Shown: piece after piece, positions 44,558 through 64,000 of the stretch
Position numbering within the stretch: position 1 is the first letter of the stretch
Layout of the letters: each line of letters opens with the position of its first letter
Assembly: GCA_003228685.1 (NCBI GenBank)
Contig: QIFC01000123.1
Span: forward strand, 1-64,000
DNA from: Chloroflexota bacterium
Lineage (GTDB): Bacteria; Chloroflexota; Dehalococcoidia; DSTF01; RBG-16-68-14
Length of the DNA stretch: 64,000 bases
Reading direction: 5' to 3'
The notes under the pieces: generated by a model
Told to the model about the DNA's origin: nothing
The model's database searches: none
Seen by the model: only the letters and a program-made list of their open reading frames with translations
Translations under genes and position numbers: made by a program

Positions 44558-44587
44558 TTGACGCTCCGCTCGGCGCTTGGGTAGACT
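44558..44587 (+). promoter_or_regulatory. Promoter of glyA
   Basis: TTGACG (44558-44563), 18-base spacer, TAGACT (44582-44587). Predicted start of transcription at 44594 makes the RNA begin GGGC. Confidence 0.7.
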
Positions 44588-44593
44588 GCAATC

Positions 44594-44676
44594 GGGCGCG
44601 GCGGTTCGCCGCGTCCGTCCCCAAACCGGGGCGGCGCAAGCTGCCCGCGACTCGCTTTCGAGCGGAGGGAGCTTCA
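44594..44676 (+). promoter_or_regulatory. glyA leader with a 5'-terminal hairpin
   Basis: The first 23 bases of the predicted RNA form a 10-bp stem with a GTT loop and one G-U pair (44594-44603 with 44607-44616). A short CCCC/GGGG hairpin follows (44619-44631). GGAGGGA (44664-44670) is left free before ATG 44677. It may stabilise the mRNA or be regulatory; no known riboswitch class is recognised. Confidence 0.4.
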
Positions 44677-61090: not shown

Positions 61091-63079
61091 TTGCGCAAGT
61101 CTAACATTCTCGTCGCGGCAGTGATGGGCGCCGGCATTGCCGTAGCTTCGTTTGGTCAAGCAATGACGACACGTGCTCTCCCAGATGAACTCTCTCGCCT
61201 TCTCCCGTTCGCTGATCAGCTGACGGACGTCTACCCCGAACCGGCTTCCGTCGTGGTCGGCATGATCCTGCTCACGGCCGGAGCGATTCTGTTCGCGGTT
61301 GTTGGCTCGCCTTTCGCGGACAATGCCAATCAATATCCCCTGGCTCCCTCAGGCCGCGGGTTCCAACTGGGACCTGCGAAACCCGTCCTTCCTGCAGGCG
61401 CGTTCCTGGCAGGTCTCGCGCTGTTTGGGGTTTTGATCAGTCAACTCTACTGGGGAGATTACGCGCATTGGCTCATCGTGATCTTCTTGCTTTCCATGGC
61501 GTTGTTGGCCGTCCCGTTCGCGGTGTTGGGCCCACGGCCGCTCAAGCAGCAGCGACCGCGCCTCATCGGGTCGCAGCTGTCAGAGGGACTCGTTCTTGGC
61601 GTCCTCATTTCAATGTTCATGCTCCTCGCCGTCCGCGACCTGAGTCATTGGCGCTTCTCGTTTCTTGGAGACGAATACCCCTTCTTTAGCGGCGCCCGGG
61701 ACATCGCATTAGGTGCTTCGTTCAACCCGTTCTCGCAAGCGGGCGTCTACGAAATCCAGCCGGTCCTTTCGTCAACGTATCAGGCACTGTTCCTGAAGCT
61801 TTCCAGCGGCGATCTCTTCGCGTGGAAATTCTCGTTGGTAGTCTTGGTGGCTGCGACACTTATTCCATTCTACCTACTGATGCGAGAACTGTTCACCCAG
61901 TTTGCCGCAACAGTCGCGACATCGATATTGGCAGCATCACACTATCTACTGGGATTAGCTCACACCGGGTACAACAACCTTGACGCACTCTTCCCCACTG
62001 CACTTGCGCTCTGGCTGCTCATCGTAGGACTTAAGCGTGATAGCAGTCTTGCCCTCTTCGCCAGCGGTGCGGCGGCCGGTCTCGGTTTCTACACGCTCTT
62101 CAGCGGCAGAGCAACAATTCTCATTATTGTCCTCTTCTTGTTGACGTTCGGCGTACACAAGCTGCGACCAAGGACGGTACTACCTCTGGCGATCTCGTTT
62201 GCGGCCGTGGCTGCGCCCATCTTTGCGGTCGATGGGTGGGATGTCATCGCAGCGATGTGGGAGCGATCTGCGGCCGCCTATGAAGTCACATGGAGCGTTC
62301 GGGTAGAGCGCGTAGCACAGAATGTCGTGCCGAGCATCATGGCGTTTAACTATAACCCGGACCGTAGGGCCTTCGTCACAGGCTCTCTGTTGGATCCCAT
62401 TTCCGCGACATTGTTTGCCTTGGGGCTGGGCGTCGCGATCTGGAAGATGCGTGACCCTCGCTTCCGGCTGTTGGTCATCTGGTGGGCCGTTGCGGTGGTT
62501 GTCAACGGCTTTGCCCACCAGCGGTCTGAGGTGGCCATTACTCGGCTACACTATGCCCTGCTGCCGGCCGCGGCCTTCGCCGGCATTGCTCTGGATATGG
62601 CTCTGACGCCACTCCTGCGGCTGGTGCAGCGGCCCGCTGCGAGAAGTGTGCTCGTCGCCGGCGCCTTGCTCGTGTTCATGGTTCCGATGCTGTATCTCAA
62701 TCTCGATCGAATGTGGGTAGACAGCGATAGGGGAACGCTGCCGGAAGCGACAGCGGTAGGGGCAGTCCTGGATGGTCCGTGTCAAGGCGAGGAGTCCGTC
62801 ATTGTTGCTCCCTTCCCAACCAACCTCAATTTGTTCGACATCGTCAATGCCTACAACCTAGGCGAGCGAACCCCCACGATTTTCTCTTACGAACAGGCCT
62901 TTGCGCCCGGCGCTCTTGCGGAATGGAGCCTGGATGGCTGCATCGTTGTGATACCCGACCCTCCGGCACCGGGCAGCGAAACGGAGTTCGACGTAATCTT
63001 GCGTGAATTGTTGGAGACTCATCCGGACAAGCAGCCGTACGTCTTCAACGGCAAGACGAAAGTCCTGGTGCTACGCTAG
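61091..63079 (+). CDS. Polytopic membrane glycosyltransferase (GT39-like)
   Basis: Membrane protein of 662 residues with about eleven to thirteen hydrophobic helices. The first extracellular motif, FLGDEYPFFSGARDIALGASFNPF, has the acidic pair expected of GT-C enzymes, and YEIQPVLSSTYQALFLKLS and AGLGFYTLFSGRATI follow as in GT39/ArnT-like proteins. A soluble C-terminal domain of about 110 residues begins near MYLNLDRMWVDSD. It would transfer a sugar from a polyprenyl-phosphate donor to a surface acceptor; both are unknown. The start TTG 61091 has AAGGAGAG immediately upstream. Compared with the glycosyltransferase at 41682 it is longer at the N-terminus, which has two extra hydrophobic segments. 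Confidence 0.75.
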   Translation: MRKSNILVAAVMGAGIAVASFGQAMTTRALPDELSRLLPFADQLTDVYPEPASVVVGMILLTAGAILFAVVGSPFADNANQYPLAPSGRGFQLGPAKPVLPAGAFLAGLALFGVLISQLYWGDYAHWLIVIFLLSMALLAVPFAVLGPRPLKQQRPRLIGSQLSEGLVLGVLISMFMLLAVRDLSHWRFSFLGDEYPFFSGARDIALGASFNPFSQAGVYEIQPVLSSTYQALFLKLSSGDLFAWKFSLVVLVAATLIPFYLLMRELFTQFAATVATSILAASHYLLGLAHTGYNNLDALFPTALALWLLIVGLKRDSSLALFASGAAAGLGFYTLFSGRATILIIVLFLLTFGVHKLRPRTVLPLAISFAAVAAPIFAVDGWDVIAAMWERSAAAYEVTWSVRVERVAQNVVPSIMAFNYNPDRRAFVTGSLLDPISATLFALGLGVAIWKMRDPRFRLLVIWWAVAVVVNGFAHQRSEVAITRLHYALLPAAAFAGIALDMALTPLLRLVQRPAARSVLVAGALLVFMVPMLYLNLDRMWVDSDRGTLPEATAVGAVLDGPCQGEESVIVAPFPTNLNLFDIVNAYNLGERTPTIFSYEQAFAPGALAEWSLDGCIVVIPDPPAPGSETEFDVILRELLETHPDKQPYVFNGKTKVLVLR

Positions 63080-63254
63080 GACTGAATGCGGGGACCGCGT
63101 TCGGGTAACCAGCCATTAGGTCGCTGCTGAAACCGTGAGCCCTGGGCCGACGGTCTTTGCCCCCTCGGGCGCAGGCAGAGTAGGGCAAAACGAAACGGGC
63201 GCGCTGGATCAATCGAAGAGCTTCATTCATACTCGGTGTTGCGACTAAGCCTGC

Positions 63255-63283
63255 TTGACACCTCATCGCCAGGTGGATACTAT
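63255..63283 (+). promoter_or_regulatory. Strong promoter of pyrG
   Basis: TTGACA (63255-63260), exact 17-base spacer, TACTAT (63278-63283). The expected start of transcription is at 63290-63291, where the sequence is GGGC. Confidence 0.8.
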
Positions 63284-63290
63284 GAATTTC

Positions 63291-63326
63291 GGGCGGCGCC
63301 CTCATGGGTGCTGCCGTTTGTATTAG
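63291..63326 (+). promoter_or_regulatory. Attenuator-like leader of pyrG
   Basis: The predicted RNA starts GGGC and forms a 10-bp stem with two G-U pairs (63292-63301 with 63306-63315, loop TCAT), followed by GTTTGTATTAG and then ATG 63327. A terminator right after a GGGC start matches the ingredients of CTP-controlled pyrG attenuation by G-slippage in Bacillus subtilis. Confidence 0.6.
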
Positions 63327-64000
63327 ATGCCGAAGTACATCTTCGTCACAGGTGGAGTGGTTAGCTCCGTCGGAAAAGGGATAACCACCGCGGCTCTTGG
63401 CCGCATCCTCAAGTCCCGTGGCCTCAGCGTCTCCATTCAGAAGCTCGATCCATACCTGAACGTCGATCCCGGCACGATGTCGCCCTACCAGCACGGCGAA
63501 GTCTTCGTGACAGACGATGGTTCCGAGACCGACCTGGACCTCGGCCACTACGAGCGCTTTCTCGACGACAATCTCACGAGCACCAGCTCCGTCACCACGG
63601 GCCAGATCTACGAGACCGTGCTGGGCAAGGAACGGCGCGGCGACTACTTGGGTGGGACAATCCAGCCCATCCCCCACGTCACGAACGAGATCAAGAGCTG
63701 CATCCGCGCCGTCGGCCGCGAATCCGGCGCCGAGGTTGTGCTTATCGAAGTAGGCGGCACAGTTGGTGACATTGAAGGCCAGCCCTTCCTGGAGGCGATC
63801 CGCCAGATGCGCAAGGAGGAAGGCCGCAACGGCACGGCATCCATCCACGTGACGCTGCTTCCATATCTGGGCGCGTCTGGCGAACTGAAAACGAAGCCGA
63901 CGCAGCATAGCGTGCGCGAGCTGCGGAGCATGGGTATCCAGCCTGACGTGATCATCTGCCGGAGCGACCGGCCCGTCGCTGATGAACTGAAAGCCAAAAT
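63327..64000 (+). CDS. pyrG: CTP synthase, N-terminal part (cut by window end)
   Basis: First 224 residues of CTP synthase, which aminates UTP to CTP with glutamine. [32 protein letters not shown] is the family start with the nucleotide loop. [41 protein letters not shown] and [21 protein letters not shown] carry the Mg and UTP sites. [23 protein letters not shown] and [10 protein letters not shown] follow. The frame runs open to the last base of the window; the glutaminase domain lies outside. Regulation probably occurs through the attenuator just upstream. Confidence 0.96.

Follow-up and report, generated by a model that had tools for sequence, protein, structure and literature searches.

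The gene pyrG lies at the end of the window (the whole stretch of DNA that was analysed, 64,000 nucleotides from a Chloroflexota bacterium), and CTP-sensitive G slippage at a GGGC start probably controls the terminator in its leader, in the manner of the Bacillus subtilis pyrG attenuator and in a compact form; we put the probability of this reading at roughly 75%. The argument is built on the promoter, the GGGC tract, the hairpin, a C-rich run, covariation, conservation in relatives and specificity for pyrG, all of them read from the DNA. In the mechanism that we infer, transcription would start at GGG, followed by C. With CTP plentiful, the polymerase would add C at position +4 and proceed, the nascent RNA would form the terminator, and transcription would stop ahead of the AUG. 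With CTP scarce, the polymerase would pause at +4 and add extra G residues; the longer G-run would pair with the C-rich run as soon as this had left the enzyme and would hold the 5' arm of the terminator, which would then form too late, such that pyrG would be transcribed.

A literature search combining reiterative transcription with Chloroflexi found no report, which, given its limited coverage, is weak evidence of novelty; slippage-type attenuation of pyrG is apparently unreported in this phylum. If the reading is true, a protein-free CTP sensor that, as far as found, is proven only in Bacillota extends to another phylum, and the leader gives an idea of how small such a device can be, with about 75 bases holding everything from promoter and sensor to terminator and start codon. 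Ranging from terminator-type to AUG-proximal hairpins, the related families make up a natural series in which a rewiring of the slippage signal from transcription to translation becomes testable, and the short leaders should be good templates in vitro.

Architecture of the pyrG leader

The features of the leader are compiled in Table 1. The canonical promoter that a sequence-only reading of this DNA had placed ahead of GGGC was confirmed, and the start site is predicted from its geometry. The terminator stem, with eight G-C and two G-T among its ten pairs, begins within the GGG. Between the stem and the ATG lies G-TTTGTATT-AG, an interrupted T-tail followed by two bases; the ten-pair stem and the T-rich tail of the earlier reading thus stood, its statement that the tail ends one base before the start codon did not. 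The hairpin is 11 nt away from the AUG. The folding energy of the 36-nt leader was calculated as -22.2 kcal/mol, against a mean of -10.7 kcal/mol for shuffled sequences (z -4.59), and 0 of 200 shuffles were as stable.

Table 1. Features of the pyrG leader in the window
Feature	Positions	Strand	Basis and details
-35 hexamer TTGACA	63255..63260	+	exact consensus, 6/6
-10 hexamer TACTAT	63278..63283	+	4/6 match, 17-nt spacer to -35
GGGC, predicted start of transcription and proposed slippage tract	63291..63294	+	7 nt downstream of -10 box; G-run 63291-63293, first C 63294
Hairpin of predicted intrinsic terminator, 10 bp, loop TCAT	63292..63315	+	folding, covariation in 10 order leaders; GGCGGCGCCC 63292-63301, loop 63302-63305, GGGTGCTGCC 63306-63315
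C-rich run CCCTC, proposed slipped-G partner (antiterminator)	63299..63303	+	sequence, relatives, nascent folding
T-rich terminator tail TTTGTATT	63317..63324	+	sequence; tails in relatives
pyrG, CTP synthase	63327..64000	+	NF003792, E 4.5e-120; ATG at 63327; 555-codon frame in contig, cut by window end

According to PMC4403831 and PMC4448216 (after Meng et al. 2004), B. subtilis cells starved for pyrimidines add G residues at the pyrG start, and this prevents attenuation. Untemplated G residues were found by 5'-end sequencing at the pyrG start of Streptococcus agalactiae and S. pyogenes, and in S. agalactiae a terminator lies upstream of the gene (PMC4448216, PMC6431027); both species belong to the Bacillota and were likened to the window by their published description. 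The pyrG leaders retrieved from Bacilli as positive controls carry a -10 box, 7 nt and GGGCT, and the 5' arm of their terminators contains CTCCC or GCCCC. The gene, the spacing of -10 box and GGGC, the leader terminator and a C-rich 5' arm as the target of slipped G residues are common to B. subtilis and the window. On the other hand, the leader of the window measures 36 nt as compared to 118-299 nt in the fetched Bacilli, which bears out the earlier description of a leader more compact than the known case; it reads GGGCGG instead of GGGCT, its G-run abuts the terminator stem without a bridging stretch, its terminator ends at the start codon, and it belongs to the phylum Chloroflexota. With pyrG as the gene, a predicted GGG+C start, a terminator and a C/U-rich 5' arm all found by sequence, the element resembles the B. 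subtilis pyrG attenuator in its sequence features; its membership in that mechanism is putative.

Conservation in Dehalococcoidia

The regions upstream of pyrG were read throughout the order of the window and at about 100 loci of the class Dehalococcoidia (loci and families are denoted here by our own L and f numbers). By script count, a -10-like box followed by 6-7 nt and GGGC precedes pyrG at 26 of 28 loci from eight families, as compared to 2 of 72 pyrG loci in the rest of the class, a contrast that is descriptive because the families were grouped after inspection of the loci. In the PyrG tree, all eight families fall into one clade (31 rows, 100/100 support), which also holds f25, f28, f34, f39 and f70 without this arrangement. 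One gain followed by several losses would explain the pattern; independent gains are also possible. Within the same clade, f70 (L123, L125, L130) has a very short pyrG leader, with about 15 nt from TATGAT to ATG, and this suggests, from the sequence, a loss of GGGC control.

In families f1, f2 and f4 of the order of the window, the leader has GGGCGGC at 6-7 nt from a -10 box, and further a C-rich run, the hairpin and a T-rich tail, as exemplified by GGGCGGCGCCCCCAGGGTGCCGTCAATTGTTTTAG-ATG (L002) and GGGCGGCATCCCCCGAAGATGCCGCCATTCGTTTTG (L013). The -35 box reads TTGACA or TTGACT in L002, L003, L004, L009 and L011, TAnnnT stands at the equivalent -10 place in relatives, and GGGCGGC is invariant in the alignment of ten order leaders. 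Across the three families 94.9% of the hairpin cells are paired, compared with 38-72% in slid controls; base pairs change from C:G to U:A and among A:U, G:U and G:C, with two-sided changes being few (4 cells). T-rich tails follow the hairpin in relatives of f1, f2, f4, f37 and f68, and f37, f55, f61 and f68, which lie outside the order, combine the GGGC start with a C-run hairpin near the AUG. The check set beforehand, conservation of GGGC and hairpin in relatives, thus came out in favor of slippage attenuation, with both kept in f1, f2 and f4 and GGGC in eight families. Together with a C-run in 24 of 26 leaders, this supports the earlier proposal that the B. subtilis-type logic fits the window.

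Several further features were seen in these upstream regions. Family f3 (L021, L030) keeps the GGGC start without a good T-tailed terminator, and the likely Shine-Dalgarno sequence of L030 falls within a TCCCCC-GAA-GGGG hairpin. Members of f4 (L010, L013, L014, L015, L018, L027) carry a further C-run between terminator and Shine-Dalgarno sequence, about 15 nt before the latter; it mostly reads CCCCC, with AGCC or GCCGCC after it.

Hairpins at the start codon

The short distance between hairpin and AUG raises the alternative that a slippage-controlled hairpin acts mainly on translation by blocking ribosome entry at the AUG until slipped G residues open it via the C-run, with termination playing a minor part. 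For the window this is unlikely. The 11 nt of the window shrink to 2-9 nt in f37, f61 and f68, f61 is without a T-tail (GGGGG-AA-ATG, GGGGG-TTT-ATG), the freed arm of L113 would be AAGGGGG directly before the AUG, and 2-3 extra G residues shift the C-run to upstream pairing in f37 and f61 by folding, all of which would suit such a role; the T-rich tail after the stem in the window and the other f1, f2 and f4 leaders, the f1 hairpin without a Shine-Dalgarno sequence, and a Shine-Dalgarno sequence well downstream of the hairpin in f4 argue against it. Furthermore, the predicted accessibility of positions -20 to +3 was no higher with extra G residues than in shuffled leaders.

Outside the order, the C-run/G-run hairpin of f61 (L112-L122, L126) touches the start codon, e.g., GCCCCC-GAAAA-GGGGG-AA-ATG, and the f37 hairpin carries a short T-rich tail, 8-10 nt. 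In most f61 and three of four f37 leaders the C-run is calculated to pair with its 3' partner to about 40-65% without added G, and to pair upstream to about 80-100% with 2-3 extra G residues; the unslipped RNA is near balance in most leaders of both families, and stems bridging G-run and C-run occur in L117, L120 and L129. It can be envisaged, tentatively and with the odds rather against it, that in one Dehalococcoidia clade the slipped G residues constitute an RNA switch made by nucleotides, which in f61, and perhaps in f37, controls translation and not termination. In f61, the untemplated G-run would take the C-run away from the hairpin at the ribosome site, and 2-3 added G residues would turn on translation of CTP synthase. 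Because the shuffle test of ribosome-site accessibility with extra G residues gave no significant effect, the idea that slippage governs the access of ribosomes in f61 is kept as a hypothesis. The nearest published idea to the f61 type is thyA of S. agalactiae, where slippage beside the Shine-Dalgarno sequence was proposed to influence the start of translation (PMC4448216); there, U residues slip at the Shine-Dalgarno sequence itself, and the slipped tract opens no hairpin.

The C-run, alternative controls and specificity

CCCC occurs in 24 of 26 related leaders, 6.3 being expected from shuffles, a count to be read with the relatedness of the leaders, which are not independent. The C-run of the window, CCCTC without CCCC, is among the weakest. 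In f4 the run is situated in the hairpin loop (CCCCGAA, CCCCGGA), a position that the terminator does not need, and L018 keeps it despite an insert in the loop. L115 and L119 of f61 have lost the third G, with GGC in place of GGGC, and CCCC as well; both are present in their close relative L114. These observations bear on the alternative of an attenuator without slippage, whose readthrough is constitutive or set by another signal, such as a protein or the general efficiency of termination. Hairpin and T-tail can stand alone, and DNA cannot reveal slippage; such an attenuator is nevertheless improbable, in that it leaves unexplained both the invariant GGGC at a fixed distance from the -10 box and the retention of the C-run in the loop of f4, and a protein site would have little room in a 36-nt leader.

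For attenuation by slippage, folding was calculated for the nascent RNA, i.e., before the 3' arm exists, and the energy of f1, f2 and f4 leaders, about -4 to -6 kcal/mol as such, fell to -9 to -15 kcal/mol with five extra G residues, while five extra A or U residues had almost no effect. Whatever number of extra G residues was tested, the finished terminator of the window is calculated to be more stable at equilibrium than the poly-G hairpin, and the completed terminators of its order likewise stay more stable; thermodynamic switching by extra G was thus not found in the folding calculation of the window leader. It follows that a switch in the window would have to be kinetic, i.e., co-transcriptional. 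In the Bacilli leaders tested, which come from the group where the mechanism was demonstrated, the finished terminator is also more stable in the calculation. As a consequence, terminator stability is no argument against a co-transcriptional switch, and dominance of the antiterminator at equilibrium is not a defining property of such leaders. Points that do weigh against the slippage reading are the interrupted T-tail and weak C-run of the window, the overlap of its GGG with the terminator stem, which sets it apart from Bacilli, the poor terminators of f3 and the small number of two-sided changes behind the covariation.

Escherichia coli controls pyrimidine genes through initial transcription and a leader hairpin, by start-site switching at pyrC and pyrD and by UTP slippage at pyrBI. 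The window leader shares the class of gene, the proposed control at initial transcription and the hairpin with these systems, which obey a different nucleotide logic and are without its GGGC and C-run. A switch of the pyrC/pyrD type, in which transcription at high CTP would start at C63290 and keep the hairpin, and at low CTP would start at a downstream G and lose it, is very improbable: C does precede GGG in the window, L002, L003, L018, L112 and L114, but the base varies, being T or A in many relatives, and a start 1-2 nt later removes only outer pairs of the ten-pair stem, sparing the stem as such.

Taken singly, the parts of the leader are near chance, with 0.4 promoter matches and 1.1 terminator matches expected in 1.2 kb. 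TAnnnT with GGGC at 6 or 7 nt occurs at six sites on both strands of the window, only one of which, at pyrG, has a terminator-like hairpin behind it. The other loci, 345 kb in total, contain 30 combinations of TAnnnT, GGGC and hairpin, and every one is a pyrG leader (several of these loci are duplicates). Since the combination of promoter, GGGC and hairpin was seen solely at pyrG leaders, the parts are jointly beyond chance. All 18 genomes of the order were searched with a covariance model built from the ten aligned leaders, and its top 11 matches (E up to 1.8e-8) are all pyrG leaders: the ten that went into the model, as expected, and L018 of genome G012 from outside it; the next match (L259, 1.8e-5) lies inside a coding stretch. 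Pattern searches for the element ahead of other genes returned scattered coding matches, the -10 box being in place only at pyrG leaders, and a scan of positions 63000-63500 against Rfam matched no family up to E 5. An ordinary promoter next to an unrelated hairpin, e.g., the end of an upstream transcript, would account for parts that each occur at about the expected frequency, yet it is the least credible explanation, as the unit is kept with covariation in 11 genomes of the order and the combination was confined to pyrG both in the 64-kb window and in the further 345 kb.

Other sites with TTGA, TAnnnT and GGGC, upstream of a tRNA, a succinate dehydrogenase-like gene, a gene for a CBS-domain membrane protein and glyA, were rejected as candidates, being without a T-tailed hairpin. 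The last of these, at positions 44558-44676 of the window upstream of glyA (serine hydroxymethyltransferase), combines a TTGACG-TAGACT promoter-like match and a GGGC start with a leader that contains a GC-rich stem as well as the hairpin GTCCCC-AAACC-GGGGC without a T-tail, and is probably unrelated to the pyrG element. A different recurrent hairpin, approximately GGCGGGGAG...CTCCCCGCC with a T-rich stretch behind it, was observed upstream of Anaerolineae-type pyrG (L033, L035, L049, L051, L077, L084); its C-run is located in the 3' arm, and it may represent a further attenuator or mark where the upstream transcript ends.
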